Of a stretch of DNA of 64,000 bases, positions 16,500 to 54,288 are shown piece after piece; position 1 is the first letter of the stretch, and each line of letters begins with the position of its first letter. Source of the stretch: a virus; IMG/VR virus record IMGVR_UViG_3300026488_000011, positions 121,492 to 185,491 of that record, one strand, 5' to 3'. The position numbers and the translations under genes were made by a program. Under the pieces are notes generated by a model. It searched no databases and had not been told where the DNA came from. It saw only the letters and a program-made list of their open reading frames with translations.

Positions 16500-16585
16500 A
16501 TTCGCTCCTTTATTAGTTTTATCTAGTCCTCTCTTTTGAGTCAACAGAAGACAGAATAAAATTTTCTAAGAAAGGATACAGGAAA

Positions 16586-25505: not shown

Positions 25506-25539
25506 TCATAGACACGTCGATGGATCGACGTGTCTATGA
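25506..25539 (-). terminator. Long hairpin after the first LamG fibre gene
   Basis: A perfect 15-bp stem (TCATAGACACGTCGA at 25506-25520 with its complement at 25525-25539) has a 4-base loop. The stop codon lies in the right arm. No clear U-tract follows on the minus strand, so it may be a processing or stability hairpin inside the fibre operon. The 100 bases beyond it hold only AT-rich leader of the next gene. Confidence 0.7.
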
Positions 25540-28419
25540 TTGTTTCCTTGTTACATTGCTTACAAATGGTTCTATAATCTCTACTTCAGGTTCTTCTATA
25601 ACTAGACCTCGTTGTACTGCCCTATATCCAGCAGGGTCAGTAAAATCTTTAAACGTAACTTCAACAGCGTCTACTGTTTCATCAGAGCTCGCTGGGGTTA
25701 CTTTAACAGGTTTATAATCCAAAGGAAGTAAGGATATACTGTCATTCAGTATTTCTATCTTAGTAATAGCGCTGGTGACTGATTTTGATAACTCTAGTAC
25801 CTGTTTACCTTCTGTAAATAAAGCTCTCACTTCTTCTTCAGTAAGTGCTCTATTAAAAATTCTTACTTGGTCCACAGTTCCGTGTGTGAGTCCGTCTGCA
25901 TCATAGGTAGATTTACCTATAAATGATTTATCAGTTATCGAAGGCGTGCTTTCATCCAAAGATCTCGTTGTTATAGGTAACTTCTTGCCATCTAACCAGA
26001 GACCGTATTTTTCACCATCATATGTCAGAACTAGATGGTATATTCTATTAGCCTCTAGAGTTACTTTAAAGTCGGTCTTATCATCTATTATTCCGGTACC
26101 AGAATAATCATCATTTTTCCTATGGTGTATACCTAGATAGTTAGTATCCGCAGCATGTCCAATAAGTAAATGAGCTCCGAAATCTATTACTCTAGACCAA
26201 AAATCATCAAATTTTTCGAACATAAAGAATGTGCTGATTGTAAAAGGATTTGAACCAGCAAAATTTGATGGATCAATAGGTATTTCTATATAACTCTCTC
26301 CGTCAAACTTAGCTGCTAGGCCACTAAAAACACCTACGTCATATTGTTCATTACCATTCCATGTACCGTTATAATTATTGTTAAGATCATCAGCAGTTTC
26401 ATTATCGAATGTATATGTAGCTATATTTGTTCCATCTCCAAGTAAGTCTGCTGTCCTAGCAGTATCTTCTACTTCCACATCTATTACATCCACTACTTCA
26501 TCATCTAGCAATACCTTAATATTATTGCCTGGTTTAGGATTTTCCATTACCGTTACTTTAGTATCATCTACATTTATTACTTCTAATGTTCTTTTATACG
26601 GTAGATATATTTGTTTAGGTAAAGCCGTTAAATTCAAAGATGTTGTGTCTAGAATGTTTCTTTGTTCGTGATATAATCTATATGCTTCGTCTTCCGTTAT
26701 TGGTCTAGTAAATACACGTACCTGATCGACAAGACCACTAAAATAAAATCTATCTCCTTCTTCTTGTCTACCGATATTCGTATTATAATTTGCTACTTCA
26801 TATCCAGCTTCGATACTGTCTATAAGTTTTCCGTTATACCACATTTTTAAATTTGTTCCATCATAGCTCATTATGACGTGATTCCATTTGTTAGGAATAT
26901 TTTCTACGCTTATCCAATTTCTATTTCCTCCTTTAGCGACAGCACAAGCGATGGTATTTTCTCCAAAGGATCTTATTGAAAATCCGGAATCACCTCCATC
27001 GGACTGATCAAATATAGCAGATTCTGAGTTTATTATATCGTCCACAAAATACCATAAACTAATAGTAAAATTATCGCCTAAGAGGTTTCCTAAGTTTTCT
27101 AAGCGTATATAACTATGTGTAAATTTAGCGGCTAAACCATCGAAAACTCCTGCCTCATATTGTTCGTCACCAGTCCATGTACCATTGTGTCTACTACTCA
27201 GGTCGTTAGCAGTTCGGTCATCAAACGTATAAGTAGCTAAACAACTATCGTCCTTAAATAAATCTAGAACGTTCGTAGTATATACTTTGTCCATTATTTT
27301 AGGTTTTATCAAGTCGCCGTCTATATTTACTACAGGTTCGGATTCTAAGTCTTCAAATACTGCTAATCTATTTTTAGTCAGATCTGTGTTTTCTAAATCT
27401 ATTTTCAAATATCTTCTTAATTTGTTTAGTTCTGTATTATTATCATAACCAGTGCCTAATGTCATATATACATCGGTACCTAAAAATGCTTTATTAACAT
27501 TTGAAATAAAGTTAAGACCACTGACATCAAGCTTTTTAGATTGCTCTGCATAGAGTATTTTTACCTCGTCCTCTGTGAGTGGTCTGTTAAAGATACGTAC
27601 TTGATCGATAAGACCTACTAGTTTATCATTATTACCAGTCCAGCCTATGTAGATATTGTAGTCCTCAGTACCTTCTTGTCCTAAATCACTACTACCTATT
27701 CTGACTCCATTTATATATAGTGTTTGTCTTCCGTCTTCGTATATACCACATATATGTGTCCAATCAGTAATAATATCATTAATTCCAGTATATTTTACAC
27801 AGTAATAATCAGCGCCCCCAGATGATACTAGTTCTAGTCTGTTTTCTGATTTATACCAGAATAAAGACAACGAACTTCTATTATCGGCATTACGATATCC
27901 GAAAAATTCTACATGGTCGTTATTGACACTAGGATCTGCTTTTATCCATAATGAAAACGATTTATTGTTTACAAGCTCATAAGTTTTATAACCAGTATCA
28001 ATATAGCTTTCACCATCGAATTTAGCAGCTTGTCCATATTTACCTGCATCATATTGTTCATTACCATTCCATACACCATTATAATTACCGCTTAAGTCAT
28101 TTGCGTTGCCATCAAACGGATAAGTAATTATACAACTCTTATCTTTAAATACGTCTAAGATAGAGGGTGTATTGAGTTTAACAGTCTTATCATTTACATT
28201 TTCTAATAGACGTCCTTCGCTATTGCTTACTAAGAATAGTTTATTAGGTAACTCTAAATCTTTATCAAAATACACAGCATCTTTAGTTGTAGTCAGTAAT
28301 GGTATCTCTTTTGGTCTAATGTTTACTTTATTGTCTCTTAAACTTATCCAATCAGACTGATCTAATTCCTGTGTTACAGGCTTTTCAATCCACTGAGAGA
28401 ATTTTTTTAAACTTCTCAT
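25534..28419 (-). CDS. Tail-fibre/adhesin with three LamG-like lectin domains
   Basis: This 961-residue protein has three tandem concanavalin/LamG-type domains at about 95-295, 390-600 and 665-875. Each opens with a TYxFDG/DxxANDLxxxxNGTWxGxEQY segment and A-KFDGESYI, and closes with VDQVRIFNRPLTEDE. Linkers between domains carry LDVSGLNF/LDTTSLNL repeats. Domains of this kind bind surface glycans. It is paralogous to 34059-37211, so the phage carries six such domains. There is no anchor domain at its N-terminus; it may join the virion through a partner such as the 283-residue anchor protein encoded just upstream. Confidence 0.75.
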   Translation of the reverse strand: MRSLKKFSQWIEKPVTQELDQSDWISLRDNKVNIRPKEIPLLTTTKDAVYFDKDLELPNKLFLVSNSEGRLLENVNDKTVKLNTPSILDVFKDKSCIITYPFDGNANDLSGNYNGVWNGNEQYDAGKYGQAAKFDGESYIDTGYKTYELVNNKSFSLWIKADPSVNNDHVEFFGYRNADNRSSLSLFWYKSENRLELVSSGGADYYCVKYTGINDIITDWTHICGIYEDGRQTLYINGVRIGSSDLGQEGTEDYNIYIGWTGNNDKLVGLIDQVRIFNRPLTEDEVKILYAEQSKKLDVSGLNFISNVNKAFLGTDVYMTLGTGYDNNTELNKLRRYLKIDLENTDLTKNRLAVFEDLESEPVVNIDGDLIKPKIMDKVYTTNVLDLFKDDSCLATYTFDDRTANDLSSRHNGTWTGDEQYEAGVFDGLAAKFTHSYIRLENLGNLLGDNFTISLWYFVDDIINSESAIFDQSDGGDSGFSIRSFGENTIACAVAKGGNRNWISVENIPNKWNHVIMSYDGTNLKMWYNGKLIDSIEAGYEVANYNTNIGRQEEGDRFYFSGLVDQVRVFTRPITEDEAYRLYHEQRNILDTTSLNLTALPKQIYLPYKRTLEVINVDDTKVTVMENPKPGNNIKVLLDDEVVDVIDVEVEDTARTADLLGDGTNIATYTFDNETADDLNNNYNGTWNGNEQYDVGVFSGLAAKFDGESYIEIPIDPSNFAGSNPFTISTFFMFEKFDDFWSRVIDFGAHLLIGHAADTNYLGIHHRKNDDYSGTGIIDDKTDFKVTLEANRIYHLVLTYDGEKYGLWLDGKKLPITTRSLDESTPSITDKSFIGKSTYDADGLTHGTVDQVRIFNRALTEEEVRALFTEGKQVLELSKSVTSAITKIEILNDSISLLPLDYKPVKVTPASSDETVDAVEVTFKDFTDPAGYRAVQRGLVIEEPEVEIIEPFVSNVTRKQS

Positions 28420-31466: not shown

Positions 31467-33287
31467 TTAATAAATATTAGGTAGTTTTATCTTATTAGGA
31501 TAAACAACAGGTACTTTACGATACGGCGATAGTATGTAATCGTCGTTTCCTCCCCAAACATATACTTCGTTGTTATTAGTAACTAAAAAACATGCAAAAC
31601 TATATATGCCAGCAGGTACTTTAGCAAAGAACTTAATCTCATCGCCTCTAACCGGTACAGGTATCTTAACATATTGTAGCATATTGGTATTAACACCTAT
31701 ACCTAATTGGTAACGACCGTTATATCCAGTGCCATATATTCCATCCTTCTTGACGATAAAACTCTGATTAATATGGCATTCCTTAGGATGGTGTTCTTGA
31801 TTGTCTAATATCTTTATTACATCTGTAGCTACAGCTACCGGAGTAAGTTTCTTACCTTTTGATCCGTAACCTACCTGACCGTACCCGGAGTAACCCCATG
31901 AATATAGCACACCATCATCTCTCAGTGCTTTAACACATGAATAACCAGCTAATGCTATGTCTATAAAACGACCTGTCAAATCTAATGGTTCTACAGGTGT
32001 GTGTTGATCTGTGGTATTATTAGTTCCGCAGAAACCTTCTCCATTATAACCAGCTGATAGAATCTTAATTTCTCCTGTATTAGGATTTTCTATTAACATC
32101 GCTACACCGTTTACGGAGTTACCTATCTTATTGTTAAATGCTACTATCTTTTTAACAACAAATCCATCTCTTATCCAGTAGTCTGTTACATCTACGAATG
32201 TAGTAACCAATCCTTTAGTACCGTTACCGAACTGACCATTACCATTAAATCCTGTCATTAGGATTCTACCATCTTTTCTCAAGGCTATAGTAAAACCATA
32301 TCTAGTTCCAATGTTATAAATTTTCTCTACTTCAGTACCTAAATATTCTATTTTTGTAAAACTAGCTCTATCTCTGGTATCGCTTAATCCTAAGGCTCCA
32401 TTATCATTAAAACCTGCTCCATAGATATAACCATCTGATTTCTTAATAAATAGTCTATTATAATCAGGTTCATAGTTCCAGTTAGTAGGATCGTCGAAAA
32501 CATCTACTACATTTGTCGCTACTAATGTAGGAAATCTGATTACATTAGAATGCCCTGCACCGCATTGTCCTCTGGTATTTTTACCCCATGCATATAAGTT
32601 TCCATTCTCTAGTAATACATAGCTATTAGTATAATTATGGTATCCTATCTTTTTGATAGGTACATCTCTTTCAGGTATTAGTAATTGTTGTAGTGCTTTT
32701 ACGCTGATGTCAGCTACTTGATTAGCTGCTCCTCTACCAGAAGTAGGATTCAAAAATCCTGAATTACCGCCAGCTGCTACATATGCCTTACCATTTACTT
32801 TAAAGGTAATACCGTGTATACCGCCTTTTACGTCTTCTATAATATGTTCAGTACCTGTAATTAACCTCTGTAACTCTTTCGGATCAATGTTTTGTAATGC
32901 CTCTATTACAGGATTACCGTCTATTATTTCTTCCTTGGTAAAAACGTTGTCTCCGTTTAATCTATGTAACCTTAATTCTCCAGATTCAAATATTCCTAAA
33001 TAATAGAATCTAGGATCGAGCTCTACTTGATCTACCACATTTATTAGTTCACCATTTAGTAAGATCCTGTAGTCTTTTTTATTTGTCTTAGGTTTTAGTA
33101 AAATATAACTACCATCTTCTTTACTTACCTCTGACAATGTTCTTAGTTCGATTATTGTAGTATCGTCGCTAGTATCGAGTATGGCTTTACCTAATGCTAT
33201 TTCGGTGCTGTCTATAAATCTATCGCCAAACTTTAAAGATTTTTTGTCATCTACAAAGATAGTATTGTTATTAATTCCTAAACTCAT
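31467..33287 (-). CDS. Fibre-block protein with RCC1-type beta-propeller
   Basis: In this 606-residue protein, residues 200-600 contain at least six RCC1-like repeats: LYAWGKNTRGQCGAG, IYGAGFNDNGALG, ILMTGFNGNGQFGNGT, LYSWGYSGYGQVGYG, IYGTGYNGRYQLGIG and VYVWGGNDDYILSP. Each strand pair ends in xWGxNxxGQxG as in RCC1 propellers. The first 190 residues are separate and beta-rich, perhaps for virion attachment. Propellers of this kind bind proteins or glycans; here a receptor-binding or fibre-tip role is inferred from position between fibre genes. Confidence 0.75.
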   Translation of the reverse strand: MSLGINNNTIFVDDKKSLKFGDRFIDSTEIALGKAILDTSDDTTIIELRTLSEVSKEDGSYILLKPKTNKKDYRILLNGELINVVDQVELDPRFYYLGIFESGELRLHRLNGDNVFTKEEIIDGNPVIEALQNIDPKELQRLITGTEHIIEDVKGGIHGITFKVNGKAYVAAGGNSGFLNPTSGRGAANQVADISVKALQQLLIPERDVPIKKIGYHNYTNSYVLLENGNLYAWGKNTRGQCGAGHSNVIRFPTLVATNVVDVFDDPTNWNYEPDYNRLFIKKSDGYIYGAGFNDNGALGLSDTRDRASFTKIEYLGTEVEKIYNIGTRYGFTIALRKDGRILMTGFNGNGQFGNGTKGLVTTFVDVTDYWIRDGFVVKKIVAFNNKIGNSVNGVAMLIENPNTGEIKILSAGYNGEGFCGTNNTTDQHTPVEPLDLTGRFIDIALAGYSCVKALRDDGVLYSWGYSGYGQVGYGSKGKKLTPVAVATDVIKILDNQEHHPKECHINQSFIVKKDGIYGTGYNGRYQLGIGVNTNMLQYVKIPVPVRGDEIKFFAKVPAGIYSFACFLVTNNNEVYVWGGNDDYILSPYRKVPVVYPNKIKLPNIY

Positions 33288-34032: not shown

Positions 34033-34064
34033 GATTAATAGGAGACTATTGTCTCCTATTAATC
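34033..34064 (-). terminator. Hairpin after the second LamG fibre gene
   Basis: A perfect 14-bp stem GATTAATAGGAGAC/GTCTCCTATTAATC has a TATT loop, with the TAA stop in one arm. On the minus strand TATAAGTTCTTTTG follows, a weak U-tract. Confidence 0.75.
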
Positions 34065-37000
34065 AGATTCTTTAAATAGATTACCGTAAGCGCTTAATAC
34101 ACTAATGTTAGGTTTGTCAATCAGGAAACCTCTCTGTAGTTTTCTAAATCCGTTAACGGACACTACATCGTTAAATTTTACGACTTTTGTAACTGTATTT
34201 ACATCATAATCTGTTAATTCAATATTGTTAGAATCTACTACTTTTATTTTCTTACTAAGTCTTAAAGACTCTGGAACCTGTGAAAGATCATAAGTTAATC
34301 TAATTTTCTTGTATTCTTCTTTAAATAGCTTTTGAATCTCTGAAGGAGATAACGATCTGTTAAAGATTCTTAGCTGGTCTATAGATCCGTTCAAATATGA
34401 ACTTAATGTATCTCCGTAACGATGAACACCTAATAGTCCAGTCATGCCATCGTTAAATATTAAGTCACCTGTATAAGCAACTGTGTATGATTTAACACCA
34501 TTAATCCACAAAGTAATTGTTTTAGCAGTTACATCATGAGTAATTGTTAGCAACTTAGGACTGTTAAAGATGTCTTTAGGAAAATAATATATCTTTTGCT
34601 CATTATCTTCCGTTCCTTTTACGGTAAATTCAAAATATATACTATCGCTACTTCCTACGAGTACGCCTCCCTTGCAATCAGCGCTGCTTCCATCAGTGTC
34701 TAAATTTCTGATATTTAAAAACGTACCAGATCCATCAGATTGGAACCATCCAGAAACGGTGTATGACTTTTGTGTAAACACGTCGTCCAGATTACCTATG
34801 TTGATATAAGTATTTCCATCGAAATAGGCAGCATCGTCGTACTTACCAAGAGTGTAAAGTTCATTTCCGTTCCAAGTAGGATTATAATTGCCTAACTTGT
34901 CCTCTATGTTACCATCCATAGGCATGAATAATACAGCAGAATTATCTCCAAATGGATCAGGGTTATTTACTGTGCTGTCTAGTACTAACTCACCATTACC
35001 AATGCTAGTACCGGCATCTGTAATAATGTTAAAATCTTTATTTGCTATATCCACGATTTCTGGTTCTAAGATTTCTGCTTCGCTATCTGTCTTTGTTAAA
35101 ATGTTTTTAGGCCTATGCATAGGTAGTAAAACCCCTAGTCCTTCTACTGCAATCTCGCTAGGTACTATTATTCTTTTAATTTGTTCCTTGTAGAGACTGT
35201 ATACCTCGTCACTATTTAATACTCTACCAGTAATTCTAATTTGATCAATTTTATCTCCTGCAGATAAGAAATTATTATAGACCGTACTACCGTTATTATC
35301 ATCAATATCAGCGCCGAATACAATTGGTGTATTTATTATACTTCCAGGAATTTCAAAGAGATCCTCTGCTACTAGTTTTCCGTTAATACAAATGTTTCCA
35401 TTGTTGGTAACTACAATGTGATGCCATTTACCAGTAGTGAAATAATCATCCAGACTGGTTATAAATTTAGGATTTTCAGTACCAGCAACTACTGCGTATG
35501 TTGTTCCTACATTCCCGTTATGTGTACTCACTGCTACATTCTTCCATAATTGGAGTGTGTTTGAATTATCTTTACTAATAGTGAATATGGTTGTGTTATC
35601 GTTATTATCAGTAGTATTTTCTAGAGGATCGGTAGCTGGATAATACCAAAAACTTAATGAGAATTCATCTGGTAATGTATCAATATTTGTCTTTAGATAG
35701 CTGCTTCCATCGTATAGCAGTGCCTTGCCTCCGAATACTCCGTCGTCATATTGCTCAGTACCTATTACTTCTGCTGTATGATTTCCTGTAAGATCTTCTG
35801 TAGTAGACTTATCAAATGTAAATACTGCTACAACTTCACTATCTTCATTTTCAAATACATTAGCTTTACTAAGTGTACCTTCTAGGGTAATATCATCTTT
35901 AGTTAGTACCTTAGAACCTTTAGTAGTTAATAATATGTCTTCCTCGTCAACATTTGTAATAGGCAGGGCATTACTCTTAATAACGTTATCAGAACCTAAC
36001 TTCATTTCTACTGGTACAGTCTCAAACGTACTAAATACTTCTTCATCAGTATGGAATGCAAGTTTATCATTGCCTTTAAACGTTATTAATTTTGGTTCTT
36101 CTTCTAAGTTTAGATTTGAAATATCGTACACGTTACACTTCAATGCTTCATTGTACACTATAGAAGCTTCATTATCGTTTAGCACTTTCTTAAACAATCT
36201 TACTTGGTCTATGTAGCCCGTTACTGATATATTATATTTCGCGTCATATCTAGTTAAGATACCTAATTCAATAAGGTAATTGGATTCTTCGTTGCCTCCA
36301 CTATACAACCAGTCTTTGTTACTAGCACTTACAGTGTCCCCGAATACTAATTCGCCATTTATATAAATATTTAGATACCCAGTTGATTTATTGTATCCTG
36401 AAGTAACATGGTACCACTTATCAGGATCAATCTTAAACCCGGTTTTTGTCCATGTCCAGTTATCTTCACCTGCTGCGTATACTAGTTCACCATCACTGTC
36501 GATACCTAATTCATAAAGACGATAACCAGCATTAAGCAATGTGATATCGTATGTAGTGTCTCCGACTGTTGGATAATCGCCATTCCAGTTAAACCAGAAA
36601 CTCACTGTTAATTCATCATCGAGATAATCTGCTAACTTAGTAGATACACCGAATCTATGGTCTGGGTTAACTTTCAAGGCGTACCCGTATTTACCATTAG
36701 TAAACAGCGGGGTCACGTCGGCAGGATCTGGCGTGTCAGTATTATTATACGTGTTACCATCGGTTACTCTACCTGGGATATACTTAAATTCATTATCTAT
36801 GTTACCTTCGAATCTAAATAGTCCTATAGCCGAACGATCGCCTAATATATCTAGATACGTGACTCCTGCGCCATTTATAGTATTATAATCAATAAACGAA
36901 GCCTCTGTTTCCTCCATAGTATTGTCGTTTTTTATTAATAGCAAGTTTTTATTTTTACTTAACTTCATCATTATTTCGTCTATAACGCTTTCATCAGTCA

Positions 37001-37211
37001 CCGGCCTACATATATCACGAACTGCATTATAAGGCAAAACTACCTTGTCTTTTCCATATGGAAATAGTCTAAAACCTTTAGTAGTTAAGCTATTATCTTT
37101 AACACTAGTCCAGTTCTTATCTGTCGCGTCTTGCTCTACATATGTTTCCGCGTAAAACGCCTCTTTTGTTTTATCATAGATCCTGTTTTCAGGTGTAAAT
37201 AAAATATTCAT
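34059..37211 (-). CDS. Second tail-fibre/adhesin with three LamG-like lectin domains
   Basis: This 1050-residue paralogue of 25534-28419 has LamG-like domains at about 125-355, 450-690 and 765-985. Repeat landmarks are DGNIEDKLGNYNPTWNGNE, AAYFDGNTYINIG and SIDQLRIFNRSLSPSE, with diverged versions in the other two (YIDQVRLFKKVLND, KIDQIRITGRVLN). Both proteins share an N-terminal block around SVKDNSLTTKGFRLFP/SLRDNKVNIRPKEIPL and a C-terminal block FRKLQRGFLIDKP/YRAVQRGLVIEEP. Glycan binding at the fibre tip is the likely role. Confidence 0.75.
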   Translation of the reverse strand: MNILFTPENRIYDKTKEAFYAETYVEQDATDKNWTSVKDNSLTTKGFRLFPYGKDKVVLPYNAVRDICRPVTDESVIDEIMMKLSKNKNLLLIKNDNTMEETEASFIDYNTINGAGVTYLDILGDRSAIGLFRFEGNIDNEFKYIPGRVTDGNTYNNTDTPDPADVTPLFTNGKYGYALKVNPDHRFGVSTKLADYLDDELTVSFWFNWNGDYPTVGDTTYDITLLNAGYRLYELGIDSDGELVYAAGEDNWTWTKTGFKIDPDKWYHVTSGYNKSTGYLNIYINGELVFGDTVSASNKDWLYSGGNEESNYLIELGILTRYDAKYNISVTGYIDQVRLFKKVLNDNEASIVYNEALKCNVYDISNLNLEEEPKLITFKGNDKLAFHTDEEVFSTFETVPVEMKLGSDNVIKSNALPITNVDEEDILLTTKGSKVLTKDDITLEGTLSKANVFENEDSEVVAVFTFDKSTTEDLTGNHTAEVIGTEQYDDGVFGGKALLYDGSSYLKTNIDTLPDEFSLSFWYYPATDPLENTTDNNDNTTIFTISKDNSNTLQLWKNVAVSTHNGNVGTTYAVVAGTENPKFITSLDDYFTTGKWHHIVVTNNGNICINGKLVAEDLFEIPGSIINTPIVFGADIDDNNGSTVYNNFLSAGDKIDQIRITGRVLNSDEVYSLYKEQIKRIIVPSEIAVEGLGVLLPMHRPKNILTKTDSEAEILEPEIVDIANKDFNIITDAGTSIGNGELVLDSTVNNPDPFGDNSAVLFMPMDGNIEDKLGNYNPTWNGNELYTLGKYDDAAYFDGNTYINIGNLDDVFTQKSYTVSGWFQSDGSGTFLNIRNLDTDGSSADCKGGVLVGSSDSIYFEFTVKGTEDNEQKIYYFPKDIFNSPKLLTITHDVTAKTITLWINGVKSYTVAYTGDLIFNDGMTGLLGVHRYGDTLSSYLNGSIDQLRIFNRSLSPSEIQKLFKEEYKKIRLTYDLSQVPESLRLSKKIKVVDSNNIELTDYDVNTVTKVVKFNDVVSVNGFRKLQRGFLIDKPNISVLSAYGNLFKESD

Positions 37212-43181: not shown

Positions 43182-44222
43182 ATGAAGCCAGTGATATTTA
43201 CCGATATATTTGAACAAAACAGATTATTAATAAGTCTACCTAACACTACAGTAATTTATGTAAGAGATTGGACTAATGTAAAGATGATAAGTAGTCTTGA
43301 TGACAATGATAATGGTATTAGAAGATTAGGTTATTTTGGAGCTAAGTTTAATCCTAAGACTATTGAGGAGATAATATTGTTTAAAGAAATATCAGGATCT
43401 TATTTAGATATTCTTCCTGATTACGTGGAAATGTTAAGGAGACTGAAGAAACATTTTAATATTCCAAAAACGTATGTAGCGCATGACATACATCATTACC
43501 TTAACTCGATGGATGAGAAAAAGAAATACATTATTAAAATAAAAAACCAAGCTAGGGGTGTAGGAAAGCACTTTGTAACTAAAGATGAATTTAGACAAAT
43601 GCTATTTGAAACAGCATATATGGATAGCGAACAACATAGAGATCATGAGGCATTTATAAAAAAGTATAAAGTGGATACAGGTCTGACTAGATCAGAAACA
43701 GAAAAAAGAGTATTATATAAAGCTATAAAAGCATTAAGCGGAGAATGTCTAGTAATGCAAGAAGAAACGATGTTTACTCATGAGTTTAGAATTTTAATGT
43801 TCAAAAACGTAATGAAAAATAATAAGCCCTTACTAATAGTGGAAAAAAGAAAAGGATATAGACCCGGTTCTGAAGAAGAAAGAAAACACGAAGTAATAGA
43901 TTTTGATAGATTTATACTAGAGGAATTTAAGTCAGAAACATTATTAACAGACATATATGAAAAGTTAATAGAATTTAACAAAGATATGCCTCATTGTGCT
44001 GTATCACTGGATTTATGGATAAACGGAGACGAAATAACGAAAGATCACATTTATAACCCTAAGTGCTGGGGAATGTTTGAATACTCAAATGAGTTTGGCA
44101 TAGATTATCCTAGTAACATCTTATCTCAAATTACTGACCTATATAGCCTAGGTATGCTCAATTACTTAAACCTAGGTGACTGTGAAGACAGAAAATTATT
44201 AGAAGGAAAAATATATGGCTGA
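43182..44222 (+). CDS. ATP-grasp-like protein upstream of DNA polymerase
   Basis: This 346-residue protein has KYIIKIKNQARGVGKHFVT near residue 115, which resembles the phosphate-binding loop of ATP-grasp enzymes. ECLVMQEETMFTHEFRILMF near 188 fits the central strand with purine-contacting residues. AVSLDLWINGD then NPKCWGMFEYS near 267-290 fits the paired acidic/Asn metal site. ATP-grasp enzymes join a carboxylate to an amine or thiol. The substrate is unknown. The gene overlaps the polymerase gene by eight bases, so the two are co-expressed. The fold call needs a profile search. Confidence 0.45.
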   Translation: MKPVIFTDIFEQNRLLISLPNTTVIYVRDWTNVKMISSLDDNDNGIRRLGYFGAKFNPKTIEEIILFKEISGSYLDILPDYVEMLRRLKKHFNIPKTYVAHDIHHYLNSMDEKKKYIIKIKNQARGVGKHFVTKDEFRQMLFETAYMDSEQHRDHEAFIKKYKVDTGLTRSETEKRVLYKAIKALSGECLVMQEETMFTHEFRILMFKNVMKNNKPLLIVEKRKGYRPGSEEERKHEVIDFDRFILEEFKSETLLTDIYEKLIEFNKDMPHCAVSLDLWINGDEITKDHIYNPKCWGMFEYSNEFGIDYPSNILSQITDLYSLGMLNYLNLGDCEDRKLLEGKIYG

Positions 44223-45879
44223 GTTAAACTTACCTATAGAAGAAGGAGATATTGTAGAACCTCGCTTCATAACACACCTCTCTAAGAAAGAAGTAGGTGA
44301 AGACGTGCATATCGTAAGAGAACTTATTACTAAAAAAGACGGAAGAAAGATAGACAACATTAGGATAATTAAAAACTATAGGAGACCATTTTGGGTAACT
44401 AAACCAATATACAGAGACCATGATGAAAAGAAAGAATCCGAAGAATTAGCTAAAGTGGATATGTTTCTATCTACTGAGTCTGATTTAGCTAAAAACATAG
44501 CTCCTAGATTAGGAGATAGATATCAGGGAATTACTGACTTAGGTAGACTGAAAGATTCTCCTTATCTATATGGTATAGACGTAGACAGCAGGACATTTCT
44601 TAAATACAGTTATATAAAGAAATATGGAGGACATGTTACTCCGTACAGAGTGGGTACATTCGATATTGAGGTAAATGTAAAAACTAATGAAATTATTGTA
44701 GCTACTTTCGCTACACCGAAAAAAGTATCTACTTATCTATTAAAAAGTTTTATTAAAGGGATTCCTAATCCTGTAGAGAGGATAAAAGATACATATGACA
44801 AACATATTCCAGAACACAGTCTAGGTAATCCTGAATTAGATATAAGAATTTTCGATAACGAAGTAGACTTACTCAAAGCCATCTTTAAAACAGCAAACGA
44901 AGCTGATGTAGATTTTATGGCTATTTGGAACCTAGATTACGATATCCCTACTATTGTAGAGAGGTTAGAACATTTTGGAGTAAAACCAGAAGATGTATTC
45001 CATTATGAAAAGATTCCTGAGAAATATAAATTCTTTAAATATAAACAAGGTAAGAAACAGAAAGTAACAGAATCCGGTAAAGTCATTCCTATTAACCCAG
45101 AAGAACAATGGCATACCGTTAAGACTACATCCAATTTCTACATAATAGATGCTATGTCAGCTCATAGATATGTGAGGGTAGGAGGCAAGAATGTACCAGG
45201 AGGATACAGTTTAGACAATATTCTAAAATACGAAGGAGTAGCTAAGAAACTAAAATTCGATACAGACGAAGGCGTGAAAGGTATCGAGTGGCATATACAC
45301 ATGGTAGAAAATAAACCCATAGAGTATGTAGTCTACAACATCTGGGACGCTATGTCTATGCTAGAGTTAGATAAGAAAACAAAAGATTTGGAACTAGCTG
45401 TGCCTATCTTATGCGATATCAGTCATTTTGATGTATTTAACTCAGGTCCTAAAAAGTTAGTAGATGGATTAGAATTCTTTTATTTAACTAGAAAACGTGA
45501 TAAAAGAGTGCTAGGTGTAAGACCTAACAAAGTGGACAGTGATAAATTACTAGGTCTAGGAGACTGGATAGTCACAATGCCTGGTTATAGAATTAGAGAG
45601 AACGGGTTGAAAGTATTAGAAGAAGCAGAACATATACATACAAATATACGTAGTTTCGTATACGATAGTGATGCTGTATCTTCATATCCGTCAGCGACTA
45701 AAGCTGCTAATGTATCCAAGGATACTACACACAGAGAAATAATAGCAATAGAAGGTATTGAAATACCTGAACTAAAGAAACAGAATATCAATATGTTATA
45801 TGGAAAAACAAATGCAGTAGAATGGTGTAGCACGATGTTAAACTTCCCTAGCCTATACGAATTAGAAGTAGCAGTATAA
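44215..45879 (+). CDS. Family B DNA polymerase, exonuclease domain plus motif A only (split or truncated)
   Basis: This 554-residue protein has Exo I GTFDIEV near 147-153, Exo II IWNLDYDIP near 237-245, Exo III YNIWDAMSM near 374-382, and polymerase motif A DSDAVSSYPS near 484-493. It then ends about 60 residues later. Motif B (KxxxNSxYG) and motif C (DTDS) are missing here and in every other frame of the window. A strong hairpin follows the stop at once, so the ending looks genuine. The rest of the palm, fingers and thumb may be encoded by a separate gene outside the window, or this may be an exonuclease-only derivative. Confidence 0.75.
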   Translation: MAELNLPIEEGDIVEPRFITHLSKKEVGEDVHIVRELITKKDGRKIDNIRIIKNYRRPFWVTKPIYRDHDEKKESEELAKVDMFLSTESDLAKNIAPRLGDRYQGITDLGRLKDSPYLYGIDVDSRTFLKYSYIKKYGGHVTPYRVGTFDIEVNVKTNEIIVATFATPKKVSTYLLKSFIKGIPNPVERIKDTYDKHIPEHSLGNPELDIRIFDNEVDLLKAIFKTANEADVDFMAIWNLDYDIPTIVERLEHFGVKPEDVFHYEKIPEKYKFFKYKQGKKQKVTESGKVIPINPEEQWHTVKTTSNFYIIDAMSAHRYVRVGGKNVPGGYSLDNILKYEGVAKKLKFDTDEGVKGIEWHIHMVENKPIEYVVYNIWDAMSMLELDKKTKDLELAVPILCDISHFDVFNSGPKKLVDGLEFFYLTRKRDKRVLGVRPNKVDSDKLLGLGDWIVTMPGYRIRENGLKVLEEAEHIHTNIRSFVYDSDAVSSYPSATKAANVSKDTTHREIIAIEGIEIPELKKQNINMLYGKTNAVEWCSTMLNFPSLYELEVAV

Positions 45880-47102: not shown

Positions 47103-47129
47103 AGATCAGCTAGAATCACTAGCTGATCT
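47103..47129 (-). terminator. Hairpin after the beta-prime-like gene
   Basis: An 11-bp perfect stem AGATCAGCTAG/CTAGCTGATCT has a 5-base loop; the TAG stop starts the right arm. On the minus strand TAATTTACTATTT follows. Confidence 0.7.
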
Positions 47130-48402
47130 CATCATAGATATCGAACTCTGTTAGTTCTACAGAACCCGACTTATGCATCTTCTTAAGGGATTCATTTAGA
47201 ATAGCCCCGGATGTCTCAGTTACTAATAACGCAATAGCATTCTCTTTACCTTTTAATTTAGAAGAAGTACAGTAAACGCAATAATGATGTTCTAAGTTGC
47301 AATACATAGGTGTTCTCAATTTTATTGTTTTACCTATCAGGTTCTTTACATTTTCCTCAGTTATTTCTACTGTTTTTCCATTATTGTCGAAGTAATATCT
47401 ATATAAGTAGTTCTTATAATTGTCTTCAGTTATGAGTGTAGGGATATAAAATTTAGTTCCACAATCTTTATCTAATATTTTTATATCGTTAGTAGCTCTT
47501 AAGGATACCTTTGCAGCTACTCCTCCTTTTTGTGTCTCAGCTCCCCTACTGTACGATGCTAATCTACTATCGTTAAACAATAACGCTAGTTTCTCTGGAT
47601 CTTTAGGATATCCTTCGTATAGAGATGTTTCTAACAGTTTAGCTTTATTACTAGGCGTAAACTCCATAGCTGTACCATACATTATAAACATTTTCTTTCT
47701 AGCACCTACTACTTTACCAGAGATAAGTTTACCATACGCAGGATCTCCCTCTAACCACTCCCTGTCGTATTCTAATAATTTCTTTTCAAGCTCTGCTACC
47801 ACTTTCTTATCTTCTAGAGCATGTGGTCCATACTTCTTCTTTAGCTCTTCGATTAACTGCTTTTTATACTCTTCAATTCCTTCGGGAGGCAGAGACGATT
47901 TCTCGGTAATTGACACCGAAAATACTCTATTAAAATTCATTATGTATAATCCTGTATCCATATACTTTTTATACTCGGATACCGTAATCTTCTTATCTGC
48001 TTCAGGATCATCGTCGTTTACTAAGTTTTTCTCTATAATAGATTCGATGTCTGAGAACTTCATCTCTTTATTCATATACGGTATCTTATTTCCAAAGCAT
48101 TCCGCTAGAAGTAGATAATTCATTATTAGTCTACCTATAGTGGTTTCAATATCTTCAGTAAGATTAGTTATCAAGCCTTTAGGAGCCTTAATTTTTTGCT
48201 TAGGAGTTAGGAAAGGTTTATTACTCTCTATGGGTATCTCAACCTCTTTATCGTTTACCTTTAAAAATAATTTGCCTTTTTCTTTTCTAATATAATTGTC
48301 CTCATGCCCGTCTACTACAATTGTAAACATATCTGTAATCCAGGTAAGGTCGTTAGGCAGACCATTATCAAATGCATATTTTAAATAATCAATTAGTTTC
48401 AT
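47119..48402 (-). CDS. RNA polymerase beta-prime-like subunit (bridge-helix, zinc and trigger-helix region)
   Basis: This 427-residue protein aligns by eye with bacterial beta-prime from just after the catalytic NADFDGD onward. TTIGRLIMNY parallels TTVGRAILWM, and YMDTGLYIMNF parallels the IMYTGFAYAAR rim region. SRGAETQKGGVAAKV (285-299) matches the bridge helix, and DCGT (313-316) is identical. The zinc cysteines are 314, 368, 375 and 378, with CxxxxxxCxxC spacing identical to E. coli C888/C895/C898. SLKKMHKSG (405-413) parallels the trigger-helix TMRTFHIGG, keeping the His. It ends there. It is likely one subunit of a split phage RNA polymerase. It overlaps the upstream gene by 14 bases. 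Confidence 0.75.
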   Translation of the reverse strand: MKLIDYLKYAFDNGLPNDLTWITDMFTIVVDGHEDNYIRKEKGKLFLKVNDKEVEIPIESNKPFLTPKQKIKAPKGLITNLTEDIETTIGRLIMNYLLLAECFGNKIPYMNKEMKFSDIESIIEKNLVNDDDPEADKKITVSEYKKYMDTGLYIMNFNRVFSVSITEKSSLPPEGIEEYKKQLIEELKKKYGPHALEDKKVVAELEKKLLEYDREWLEGDPAYGKLISGKVVGARKKMFIMYGTAMEFTPSNKAKLLETSLYEGYPKDPEKLALLFNDSRLASYSRGAETQKGGVAAKVSLRATNDIKILDKDCGTKFYIPTLITEDNYKNYLYRYYFDNNGKTVEITEENVKNLIGKTIKLRTPMYCNLEHHYCVYCTSSKLKGKENAIALLVTETSGAILNESLKKMHKSGSVELTEFDIYDEIS

Positions 48403-49507: not shown

Positions 49508-49951
49508 ATGAGTAAAAAGAAAAAAATAAAAGTAGAAGATAATGAGAGATTAAAATGGGAAGATCTAGCAGATACTAGCCTAGCACTTAGACAGTCGTTA
49601 GGAGAAATCAACGCCAGTATTATGAAGTTATCAGAAAACCTAAAAGACGTGATTGACAGTAATCCTGATGTACAGCAAGTTTACAATGGAGTAGTTAAAT
49701 CTCTAGAAGATTTAGTTAATAAATGGGTCGAATTAAAAAAACTACACTCTACTGAAAAAGATGGGAAATACTATTACTGGATGGGTGAGTTAGATATAAA
49801 TAACGATAAAATGGTAGACCACTACATGAACTTATCATTAGCCTATGGAGGACTGACTAATGAGGTAGTTACACTAGCTAACACATCAATAGCAGCCCTA
49901 GCAGCTGAGATAGAAAAACATATGGATACAGGAGAAAAAGATGGAGAATGA
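49508..49951 (+). CDS. Hypothetical protein, first gene of the frameshift operon
   Basis: This 147-residue helical protein has a basic N-terminus (MSKKKKIKVEDN) and a coiled-coil-like body with no recognised family. It overlaps the next gene by 11 bases and is probably a structural or assembly partner of the frameshifted product. It follows TTAAGGAGC and a leader (49409-49507) that separates it from the divergent 48389-49408 gene. Confidence 0.5.
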   Translation: MSKKKKIKVEDNERLKWEDLADTSLALRQSLGEINASIMKLSENLKDVIDSNPDVQQVYNGVVKSLEDLVNKWVELKKLHSTEKDGKYYYWMGELDINNDKMVDHYMNLSLAYGGLTNEVVTLANTSIAALAAEIEKHMDTGEKDGE

Positions 49952-51365
49952 TAAAAAGTTTTACGAGAATATTAAGGAGCTAGATCTAGAGAAAATTAGG
50001 AAGAAAGAAATAAAAATCATTCTTCCTGTTTCTAAATATTCAGACCTAGATAAATTCGTAAAAGAGTTATTAGAGAATGAAAACATTTTAGAAGACTTAA
50101 GTACTGACGATAAAGTAACAGTAGAATTGGTATTAGAGTCTATGGATAAAACAAATCCTGATGATATAGGAGCAAGAGATAGCATAGAAGATCTTAATGT
50201 CGAACCTGTCGTTAATGATAAAAAACTAGTCTTAAAAAATGTATCTACTAAACAAACGAGCAATAGTACTCTAGCTAAGCTTAAACTAGCAGAAGCATTA
50301 GGTATAGGAATGTTATCTCATGTACCGCTATGGCATAGCGGCTTCTGGGTAACATTAAAACCTCTTACTAAACAAGAGAAAATAAACTTGATGTTAAAAC
50401 TGTCTGAAGAATTTGGTAGAATAGGTAGACAAACCAACGGACTAGTCTTTAGTAATCACTCAGTTGTTTTTAACAAGATAATTATAAATAAAGTAAAAGA
50501 ACAAATCATTGACACTAGTCTATCCTTACCAGAGGGTGAAGATATCATGGATTATGTCAAACTACAAGATCTTTATCCTCTAATCTTAGGTTTACTTAAA
50601 ACAATGTATCCTAAAGGGGTGAATTATATCCTACAGTGTAAAAATAGTGCAGTGTTAGAAAACGACGTTCCTAAGTGCACATACAAAGCTGAGATAAATT
50701 TAGATCTAAGTAAGACCCTATGGGTGGATATGAATAAACTATCTACCGAGCATAAATCTCAAATGACTAAAAGAGCTAGTAAATCAGTCTCGATTGATGA
50801 GGTTAAGAAATATCAAGAAACATTAGATGGTAATGGAGAACTACCTATTAATATTAACTTAGAAGATACATCTGTAAGTATTGTTGTAGAAACTCCTAGT
50901 GTAAACAAATACTTAATGCATGGAGAATATTTTATTACCCTGCTACATGAAAAGGTTAATGAAATAATCAGGAGTAGTAAAGCATTTGAAGACGAGAAGG
51001 AAGCAGAGATTCTTATTCTAAATACGATGTACCTATCTACATACATTCACTATGTGAAACGAATAGTAGTAAACGGAAAAATTATGGATGACGTAGGAGA
51101 TCTACATAAGTCCCTAGAAATGTTATCTAACCAGCCTAAGATTAGAAAGAATATCAAATCTAAGATTACTGATTACATAGACAATAGTTTAGTAAGTATT
51201 GTAGGGATACCTGACTTTATGTGTCCTATTTGTGGATCTACACAAAAATCAGAAGAAGACAAGAGTAATTTCAAATCCTTTATACCATTAAACATGTTAG
51301 ACTATTTTTTTACCCATCTCGGGTACCAATATCAGATGTTATTGAAGGAATTGACAGAGAGCTAG
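49941..51365 (+). CDS. Short product of a probable programmed-frameshift gene (tail-assembly-like)
   Basis: This 474-residue protein has a long central alpha/beta region and a C-terminal CPICG zinc-ribbon half-site near residue 432, followed by IPLNMLDYFF. The frame then meets a run of seven Ts (51305-51311) and ends 17 codons later. An ending of the type zinc-finger, LNxLxxFF resembles the gp26-type baseplate-hub/assembly proteins of some large myophages (memory-based). A -1 shift at the T run would give a 638-residue product sharing residues 1-457. It is coupled to 49508-49951 by an 11-base overlap. AGGAGAAAAAG precedes the ATG. Confidence 0.6.
   Translation: MENDKKFYENIKELDLEKIRKKEIKIILPVSKYSDLDKFVKELLENENILEDLSTDDKVTVELVLESMDKTNPDDIGARDSIEDLNVEPVVNDKKLVLKNVSTKQTSNSTLAKLKLAEALGIGMLSHVPLWHSGFWVTLKPLTKQEKINLMLKLSEEFGRIGRQTNGLVFSNHSVVFNKIIINKVKEQIIDTSLSLPEGEDIMDYVKLQDLYPLILGLLKTMYPKGVNYILQCKNSAVLENDVPKCTYKAEINLDLSKTLWVDMNKLSTEHKSQMTKRASKSVSIDEVKKYQETLDGNGELPININLEDTSVSIVVETPSVNKYLMHGEYFITLLHEKVNEIIRSSKAFEDEKEAEILILNTMYLSTYIHYVKRIVVNGKIMDDVGDLHKSLEMLSNQPKIRKNIKSKITDYIDNSLVSIVGIPDFMCPICGSTQKSEEDKSNFKSFIPLNMLDYFFTHLGYQYQMLLKELTES
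51305..51311 (+). promoter_or_regulatory. Candidate -1 ribosomal slippery site (T TTT TTT)
   Basis: Seven consecutive Ts are read in the zero frame as TAT TTT TTT ACC, a perfect X XXY YYZ heptamer. Slipping back one base continues into an open frame of 181 codons that has no usable start of its own. A small TACCC/GGGTA hairpin follows immediately; its spacing is too short for a classical stimulator. Confidence 0.65.
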
Positions 51366-51856
51366 TCGATTACATCCTAGAGAAGTACGAATCGGACTAT
51401 CACGTAACAGATAAATACATAGATCTGATTCGTCTTCCGTTGGTATCCGAGAAAGACAAAATAGGTCTAATAAATTTAGTATTACAGACAGTAAAAAAAT
51501 TTAGTCCTAAGACTATACTCAACTTTCCTGAATCCGATGTAATTAAGAATATCGCCTATGACAATATGATGAAATTACCGCAGCATATAGATAAACCTAG
51601 CTTAGCGACTGTAGAGTATAAAAAAGAAGAAGATCCGTTTCTAACTACGGATTATAATCAAACTGTATTAGAATACTTAGAGTTAGAAATCTATAAAAAT
51701 ACAGGATTGAGTCTAAATGAGTATATGAGACTAACGGAATACGAAATAGGCGTATTGAAGGACATGTTAGCTGTTAGAAACAGTAAGTTAAAACTTGAGA
51801 CAGAAGATTCTAAACGCGATTCGGGAAACTGGATAGACGAGACATTTGATCTATGA
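51311..51856 (+). CDS. Frameshift extension (C-terminal 181 codons of the long product)
   Basis: After the T run the -1 frame reads YPSRVPISDVIEGIDRELVD and continues without a stop to 51856. The first possible internal start, TTG at 51440, has no ribosome binding site, and the conserved-looking acidic sequence (LVDYILEKYESDYHV) begins well before it. The extension is helical and charged with no recognised domain. Long/short product pairs made by -1 slippage are a hallmark of phage tail-assembly chaperones, which is the most likely role. A strong hairpin follows the stop. Confidence 0.6.
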   Translation, partial: YPSRVPISDVIEGIDRELVDYILEKYESDYHVTDKYIDLIRLPLVSEKDKIGLINLVLQTVKKFSPKTILNFPESDVIKNIAYDNMMKLPQHIDKPSLATVEYKKEEDPFLTTDYNQTVLEYLELEIYKNTGLSLNEYMRLTEYEIGVLKDMLAVRNSKLKLETEDSKRDSGNWIDETFDL

Positions 51857-52606: not shown

Positions 52607-52634
52607 ATACAGACCTAAATGTCTAGGTCTGTAT
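52607..52634 (-). terminator. Terminator of gene 52615-54288
   Basis: An 11-bp perfect stem ATACAGACCTA/TAGGTCTGTAT has loop AATGTC and is followed on the minus strand by TCTTTTTTTATTTTG. The TAG stop lies in the left arm. Confidence 0.88.
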
Positions 52635-54288
52635 CTAAAACTTCTTTTTCTAAGATGTTATCGTCTTGGAATTTTCCTTCTAACATTGTTTCTAATAACG
52701 TCAATCTTTCTTTCATTTCATCATCTAGTAGAATTTTACCGGATTCTATGTCGACTTTTACAAACGGATTAATTCTAAATCTCGGTGAAGGCGACTTTTT
52801 CGTAAGATATAGAATGTTTCCAATGTAAAGATCCTCGGCATGCAAGTTTCTACTAAACGCAGGGAATGAAGCATTCTTATCTCTCTCTACTCCTCTACCT
52901 CTATTCTGGTCTTCTAGTATAGACGTAATCTTAAACGCATAGTTATCTCCAGAATAATCTACCGGCATTAATGCTATATTAGTACTGCCACCTTTAATAC
53001 TGCTAAAAAACTTTTTAGGAGTGAATTGTTTGTTGAAGACGTTTTCCACGTCTCTAGTAGTTATTCTTTCTCCTTTCTTGTTATACTCCTTTATAATTCC
53101 ATAGAGAGATTTGTTTATACTGGAGATTGTTTCAAACATTAGGTAATATAGTACGTCGATATACTTATTGTCTATCTGCGTAGATCTCTTTTCATAATTA
53201 AGAATTAACTTATCATAGTTCTTAATTATGTAGAAAATCAAATCATAAAAGTCATCAACATAGACGCCATTTTCTCTTAATTTTGACTCTATGATAGGAT
53301 CGATGTAGCTGTCGATCAAAGATAGATATTCCTCCATACTGGATAATATTTTTTCCTGTCTATAGTTGTTTCTGAAAATAGTCTTACCTAATAACATCAT
53401 CCAGAATTCTTTTTCAGGCATTTTACTTCTACCGCTTAAAATATCCGGTAAGAAATTACTGAACTGATTTAGTAGGTCAAATGTAGTAATTAAACTACCT
53501 ACAATGGTATCTACAACAGGACTTACTTTGTCTTTAGGTACTAGGATCTTAATATCATGTGGTGTGTAGTTATCATCATTTAGGATTCTAGGTTTCTTTC
53601 CTACTGTTTCATAGACCGTATAATCTTTTTTCATATCTTCAGGCACTATACCTTTTATAATTTTAGGTTTAAATCCTAGATATTTTTCAAATGCTCCATA
53701 AAAGCCATGCTTTACAAATAGATATAATGCCATAGGTACTTTCTGATTCGTACCTTCCACTATTTTGTAAGCATGAGCTGTTATTATGGATACAGGAGTC
53801 TTGAGTCCATCTTTTATAACGTTCTTCTCTATCCTTTTAAAGATTAATTTGTCTTTAAGTAATCTTAAGAATACTTCTTTAGTAGTAGGAGATATTACGT
53901 AGTCGGTCAATACAGGCACAATGCTGTATACCGCATCAGAAAGACTAATGATGGCACCTCTCTCCGTATACGGTAGATAAAGTACTCTATTAATGTCTTC
54001 TCCCCTGAAGTTAAAGCTGAATACCACCTTATAGAGAGTAGATTTAGACGTATCAAGAGTAGTCTTACCACTCCCTTTAAACTGCTCGTTGTAAGACTCA
54101 TATGGAGAAAGCATTCTCCAACCATTATAACTAAGACCTATTTCTGGTGGTAAGGTAGCTACTCCTGATTTTATAATGCTGTCTAGATAGTATGGTATTT
54201 TTTCCACCAATGGTCTTACTAGGCCATCCATTGCTTTGTGGTTGATAGGCTTTCTGACTTTATCTACGGTCTTTTTATTTAAAGACAT
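52615..54288 (-). CDS. Candidate RNA polymerase beta N-terminal-like subunit
   Basis: This 557-residue protein's C-terminal RNLHAEDLYIGNILYL (480-495) and FRINPFVKVDIESGKI (504-519) parallel beta RDVHPTHYG...IGLINSLSVYA and FLETPYRKVTDGVV. RVLYLPYTERGAII with YSIVPVL (101-127) recalls the GTFIINGTERVIVSQL stretch, and KVPMALYLFVKHGF (183-196) recalls KLPATIILRALNY. Each match is weak alone, but they occur in the same order. Size and order fit the beta N-terminal subunit of split phiKZ/AR9-type polymerases. The alternative is an unknown virion protein near the capsid gene. Confidence 0.4.
   Translation of the reverse strand: MSLNKKTVDKVRKPINHKAMDGLVRPLVEKIPYYLDSIIKSGVATLPPEIGLSYNGWRMLSPYESYNEQFKGSGKTTLDTSKSTLYKVVFSFNFRGEDINRVLYLPYTERGAIISLSDAVYSIVPVLTDYVISPTTKEVFLRLLKDKLIFKRIEKNVIKDGLKTPVSIITAHAYKIVEGTNQKVPMALYLFVKHGFYGAFEKYLGFKPKIIKGIVPEDMKKDYTVYETVGKKPRILNDDNYTPHDIKILVPKDKVSPVVDTIVGSLITTFDLLNQFSNFLPDILSGRSKMPEKEFWMMLLGKTIFRNNYRQEKILSSMEEYLSLIDSYIDPIIESKLRENGVYVDDFYDLIFYIIKNYDKLILNYEKRSTQIDNKYIDVLYYLMFETISSINKSLYGIIKEYNKKGERITTRDVENVFNKQFTPKKFFSSIKGGSTNIALMPVDYSGDNYAFKITSILEDQNRGRGVERDKNASFPAFSRNLHAEDLYIGNILYLTKKSPSPRFRINPFVKVDIESGKILLDDEMKERLTLLETMLEGKFQDDNILEKEVLDTDLDI

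Follow-up and report, generated by a model that had tools for sequence, protein, structure and literature searches.

Evidence for a -1 programmed ribosomal frameshift in the phiKZ gp77 family of jumbo phages, with a candidate tail or hub assembly chaperone pair as its product

The window analyzed in this study is a stretch of 64,000 nucleotides comprising positions 121492-185491 of a virus record (IMGVR_UViG_3300026488_000011) that is 185,491 bases long, and its source is a phiKZ-like jumbo phage. The 474-codon gene that forms the subject of this analysis is, judged by sequence similarity, a homologue of phiKZ gp77. The ORF matched the profile phrog_4585 (E 1.6e-66), which was also matched by 16 of the 16 members of A1, and tblastn with the 474-aa protein retrieved 209 phage records, PHIKZ077 of phiKZ among them. 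When the window protein served as the single query against viral contigs, no relatives were returned. Two GenBank records give the gp77-family gene a name: one calls it a putative baseplate hub assembly protein, from T4 gp26 similarity, and the second a baseplate protein. Structure prediction drew on 39 rows (the window and viral-contig loci only), and the 474-aa form was modelled with pLDDT 87 and pTM 0.88. In a comparison with solved structures (VIA-align), a single helical stretch at most was aligned, the best Z being 5.6 across 46 residues. A guess from the neighbouring genes, that the product is a sigma-like subunit of a phage RNA polymerase, was rejected: no meaningful sequence match to a solved structure was obtained and the homologue is gp77.

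The features of the locus are collected in the table below. The small plus-strand ORF upstream of the gene, which could be placed in no family, occupies the position of phiKZ gp78, as does such an ORF in 27 of the 28 annotated relatives, the exception (L070) being cut at the start of its record. The order of the gp79 and gp78 genes is the same as at the phiKZ gp77 locus, and the RNA polymerase beta-subunit family gene is likewise a conserved neighbour. Two ORFs on either side, one of a DNA polymerase family and one of a family named only polymerase, are possibly the parts of a split DNA polymerase. No tRNA or tmRNA genes were found within positions 1-64000. Elsewhere in the window, the minus strand carries genes for the large subunit of ribonucleotide reductase with an ATP cone (14097-16544), for a 606-aa RCC1-repeat protein that also matched tail proteins (31467-33287), and for two large proteins in which Laminin_G_3 (ConA-like lectin) domains recur (25534-28419 and 34059-37211), which are perhaps tail fibres.

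Features at and around the gp77-like gene (positions are those of the window)
Feature	Position	Strand	Basis
DNA polymerase family ORF	44215-45879	+	phrog_3011, E 1.4e-153
RNA polymerase beta-subunit family, conserved gp77-locus neighbour	47119-48402	-	phrog_2962, E 5.4e-112
Upstream gene, 147 aa, at the phiKZ gp78 position	49508..49951	+	ORF
0-frame gene, phiKZ gp77 homologue by sequence, 474 aa, predicted short product	49941..51365	+	phrog_4585, tblastn, model
Codons Cys233 to Cys246, first pair of the four-Cys site	50637..50678	+	
Codons Cys428 to Cys431 (CPIC), second pair	51222..51233	+	
Slippery heptamer T TTT TTT, Phe in both P and A sites	51305..51311	+	sequence; relatives
Extension in the -1 frame (181 codons and a stop), C-terminus of the predicted 638-aa long product	51311..51856	+	
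138-aa TTG ORF that ORF callers would list as a gene in its own right	51440..51856	+	
ORF of a family named only polymerase	52615-54288	-	phrog_2943, E 3.3e-85

Near its end the gene contains a run of seven T residues. Frame 0 reads TAT TTT TTT ACC at this point, and the heptamer T TTT TTT therefore lies in the exact X XXY YYZ register of a -1 slippery site. From the last base of the run 181 codons are open in the -1 frame, so that a slip would add a long C-terminal part and the locus would yield products of 474 and 638 aa. The original prediction, made from the letters of this DNA alone, had described the run, its reading and the lengths of the two predicted products in these terms, and all of this was confirmed in the sequence. 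Its further statement that the extension has no start of its own applies to the first 43 codons only, after which comes the TTG at 51440; the first ATG is codon 85. No Shine-Dalgarno-like sequence was found at this TTG or at the codon-85 ATG, and the TTG ORF is most likely not a gene.

In the mechanism that we propose, two Phe tRNAs would slip back by one base on U UUU UUU near the end of the gp77-like gene. Most ribosomes would keep to frame 0 for 17 more codons before the stop, releasing the 474-aa short form, while a fraction would enter the -1 frame and produce the 638-aa long form with its extra, mostly helical C-terminal domain. The slip would thus set the ratio of short to long product. 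One partner may be bound by the common part, while a second may be recruited through the additional domain that only the less abundant long form carries.

To compare the site between phages, 78 loci were assembled, comprising the window and 77 relatives (L002-L078), of which 28 were named GenBank loci and 49 viral-contig loci. Removal of duplicates at 90% identity dropped 12, leaving 66 non-redundant loci with a median pairwise protein identity of 0.23. Slip positions came from a motif search reaching no more than 45 codons from the stop; in four loci (L034, L040, L051 and L070) homology guided a manual placement, and for L024, which offers two candidate registers, the first one was taken. The part of the protein common to both forms is 474-720 aa long across the 66 loci, and 462 aa in L070, which begins at the start of its record.

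The original prediction had proposed comparing homologues for a conserved slippery heptamer, as opposed to a single uninterrupted frame. The results showed that the open -1 frame passes the 0-frame stop in all 78 loci, with its end within the locus each time, and that an N TTT TTN heptamer stands in the slippery register in 75 of them; not one has an uninterrupted frame. This outcome supports the central claim of a programmed -1 frameshift at the seven-T site. Measured from the slip in the 66 loci, the open stretch is 131-195 codons long (median 165) in the -1 frame, compared with 1-102 codons (median 10) in the +1 frame. One ordinary gene could also have been split by an indel that arose in the T run during sequencing or assembly, since homopolymer runs are error-prone in principle. 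A continuous frame is, however, missing from all 78 loci, isolates and metagenomes included; we regard the probability of such an error as negligible, and as an explanation it was ruled out.

The most frequent heptamer in the 78 loci is that of the window, T TTT TTT (44), followed by T TTT TTC (16), G TTT TTT (7) and T TTT TTG (4); A TTT TTT, G TTT TTC, C TTT TTT and A TTT TTC were each seen once. The first base is not T in 11 of the 75 loci with N TTT TTN, which is a departure from strict X XXY YYZ. The three loci that lack the heptamer, L034 and L040 (both CTT TTT ATT) and L051 (GTT TTT TCC), all retain the open -1 frame. L034 (site L034:4012-4020) and L040 are two related contigs that share their slip-site variant.

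Among the 66 non-redundant loci, the first Phe codon of the site is TTT in every one, against 24.7 expected from the share of TTT among the remaining Phe codons in these genes (log10 P -35.9, a value that overstates independence because the loci are related). The wobble base before this codon is T in 56 of the 66. Base Z of the heptamer may be T, C or G, and the XXY and YY positions are nearly invariant. In an alignment built without using the motif, the first-Phe positions of all 66 loci share one column, and elsewhere in the same genes an in-register T TTT TTN occurs at only 1 of 35,193 codon positions. As read from these comparisons, the base constraints are those of the X XXY YYZ rule and go beyond a conserved Phe-Phe. 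A tandem slip of two Phe tRNAs fits the constraints of the site.

The T run itself could also induce slippage of the RNA polymerase, in which case the long form would be made from altered transcripts. In favour of this, the run has seven T in 31 of 66 loci and eight in 14. In the remaining 21, however, it consists of only five or six T, which makes transcriptional slippage less likely, and the constraint tracks the codon register, with T, C or G at Z next to nearly fixed XXY and YY positions. We consider this explanation very unlikely. For the translational slip, a downstream stimulatory RNA structure is common at -1 sites, though optional. Pseudoknot-free folding of the sequence downstream of the site detected neither a conserved structure nor an excess of structure in the 66 loci: the mean z was -0.38 for 45 nt and -0.26 for 70 nt, compared with -0.16 and -0.39 for the gene controls.

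The stretch beyond the 0-frame stop behaves as coding sequence. Of 23 pairs of relatives, 11 were saturated and 12 were computable, and these gave dN/dS values of 0.08-0.37 for the extension past the 0-frame stop, a range like that of the 0-frame part; the values are rough because dS is mostly above 1. By this comparison the extension is under purifying selection in the relatives. Residues 121-170 of the extension were modelled at a pLDDT of about 95-97. The extension matched no named family, and a fold search with it gave no hits at E <= 0.001.

In all 28 annotated GenBank loci, the equivalent of the TTG ORF of the window has its own CDS entry, whose end coincides precisely with the -1 stop each time. 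These annotations speak for two separate genes, the downstream one having its own start or being re-initiated at the 0-frame stop. Yet the starts chosen in these annotations vary widely, lying anywhere from -28 to +85 codons when counted from the slip, and between the slip and 15 nt beyond the 0-frame stop a start codon of any kind occurs in only 7 of the 66 loci, an ATG in only one. In 48 of the 66 loci no start in the extension is accompanied by an SD-like sequence. On these counts a conserved start is absent from the extension, and two genes would in addition leave the TTT TTN codons unexplained. Such an arrangement seems to us even less probable than transcriptional slippage.

A -1 programmed ribosomal frameshift very likely operates at the gp77-like gene, judging from the conservation of frame and site, and would give a short product (474 aa in the window) and a long one (638 aa). 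The PHROG library divides the extension among several families (phrog_12109, phrog_7580, phrog_13274 and phrog_34704), and production of the long form by a slip would explain this scatter of the C-terminal domain across several orphan protein families.

The window protein contains four Cys residues in total, at positions 233, 246, 428 and 431. The original prediction had placed a zinc ribbon just before the slip; the CPIC knuckle is indeed there, but it is a single knuckle, and the other Cys pair is distant. Both pairs were present in 37 of the 66 loci and neither in 12, the remaining 17 being unplaced or odd, so the pairs are mostly kept or lost together. It should be noted that a rough regular expression served to find where the first pair lies, and that on inspection by eye it had mis-hit L077. 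This pattern suggests that the two pairs form one putative metal site that closes directly before the slip. Across the loci compared, the four-Cys site is dispensable for the frameshift arrangement.

Frameshifts to -1 are well known in tail assembly chaperone genes, e.g., lambda G/GT (PMC5009743). As far as that system is described there, it resembles the one proposed here: the slip lies close to the end of the first frame and gives a short form and a -1-extended long form. The phiKZ-like gene differs from G/GT in that it does not lie by a recognized tape-measure gene and matches no named chaperone family; the families named for tail assembly chaperones in Pfam, PHROG and NCBIfam were all unmatched. 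Lambda-type chaperones are also smaller than the common part of the phiKZ-like gene. In another phage family, the Adele-type (Vandenendeviridae) chaperone locus is described with an invariant GTTTTT motif and a poly-T slip site; as at our loci, its -1 frame is open in all genomes and the downstream part is annotated as a separate hypothetical gene (in the account of PMC12846349). The large phage 0305phi8-36 has a short/long chaperone pair too, gp143/gp144, which according to the description in PMC2147016 is encoded by two genes without a frameshift, close to the tape-measure gene. In the open-access literature that was searched, we found neither an earlier report of such a frameshift in phiKZ-like phages nor any named tail chaperones of these nucleus-forming jumbo phages. 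The slip would be a known trick in an unusually large, T4-hub-like protein and in a different gene neighbourhood.

With respect to function, the original prediction had drawn a comparison with tail assembly chaperones. It is plausible, with some support from the fold and a parallel to T4 gp26/gp51, and stops short of proof. In a Foldseek search of the short form against predicted viral structures, the best named matches were phiKZ-like and other large-phage proteins. Lower matches included two T4-like baseplate hub assembly proteins (E 2.1e-4 and 2.7e-4; target TM 0.56 and 0.48; rmsd 7.9 and 8.6), followed by a named baseplate protein (3.4e-4) and a baseplate hub subunit (1.1e-3).

The Pfam family PF12322 includes both T4 gp26 (208 aa) and gp51 (249 aa), whose genes are adjacent; genes 27 and 28 separate gene 51 from the tail-length gene 29. 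The C-terminus of gp26, CPECG...EFFELL, has the layout of the short form, a Cys knuckle and then FF, and gp51 is longer by about 48 residues. As predicted for the phiKZ-like gene, T4 has a short and a long form, perhaps of similar fold to judge from Foldseek, but it uses two genes for them; this layout suggests that T4 holds in two genes what phiKZ-like phages appear to make by a slip from one. As described in PMC3004832, gp51 is required for T4 tail assembly but is absent from the final particle. The sequence link to T4 is weak. The family profile aligned with T4 gp26 (hhalign) at E 9e-4 and a probability of 23%, the aligned part being confined to the Cys knuckle and FF, and PF12322 matched none of five phiKZ-like records (G000, the record of L022, phiKZ, RAY and EL), while the T4 control was matched twice. 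The C-terminus of gp51 was considered as a relative of the extension, and this was unsupported, the extension and gp51 giving no match.

The more distant jumbo phage phiR1-37 has a 475-aa ORF with a sub-threshold match to PF12322 (E 0.007). This gp26-like ORF is preceded by a gp25-like wedge gene, an arrangement that recalls T4, where genes 25 and 26 are neighbours. It ends soon after CTT TTT ACC, and the -1 frame is open there for 91 codons; this extension scored 10.7 bits against gp51, a weak value, the best of 2000 shuffled decoys reaching 8.1. By eye, a GroEL-like ORF lies next at this locus (L094:180-2405). Matches to the 475-aa protein were found in AR9, PBS1 and Staphylococcus jumbo phages.

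The frameshift may also be real and the pair something other than a tail or hub chaperone, e.g., a component of the virion or a protein that acts together with the phage RNA polymerase. The neighbourhood agrees with this: at phiKZ-type loci the gene adjoins an RNA polymerase subunit gene, gp79 and genes of unknown function, with no tail genes, and no recognized tape-measure gene stands beside the gp77-type gene among the loci examined. A tape-measure candidate of phiKZ, a frame of 2243 codons that includes an SLT domain, lies at about 195 kb and gp77 at 72 kb. The faint likeness to T4 gp26 and an extension outside the named families point the same way. Against it, the short form is placed near T4-type baseplate hub assembly proteins by the fold search, and the T4 order of wedge gp25 and gp26-like gene is retained in phiR1-37. 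On balance, a role other than chaperone appears unlikely, though well worth keeping in mind.

Given the weak link to T4, the extension unlike gp51 and the lack of a tape-measure neighbour, the gp77-type products probably work like a chaperone pair, while their membership in that group is unproven. We favour, as a probable reading of the whole, a slip-made short/long pair that acts as a tail or baseplate hub assembly chaperone. By analogy with the systems above, the description of the pair as an oversized chaperone of this kind is somewhat less secure and may be taken as modestly favoured. The chances seem about even that T4 gp26/gp51 is the same system, with a gene duplication replacing the slip, and that phiKZ-like phages make their oversized pair from one gene; in that case the slip ratio would help to set tail or hub assembly in giant virions.

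If the frameshift interpretation is true, the family of phiKZ, PhiPA3 and Goslar gains a protein form that was missed in 28 annotated loci. If the chaperone role holds as well, the phiKZ family would have a testable candidate for its tail/hub assembly chaperone. The frameshift pairs of many tailed phages would then be joined to the two-gene pair of T4. As for gp51 itself, the row of the T4-like contig L088 was left out owing to stops in its frame; the gp51 gene seems interrupted there (L088:2001-2746), with 120 codons open compared with a protein match of 247 residues.
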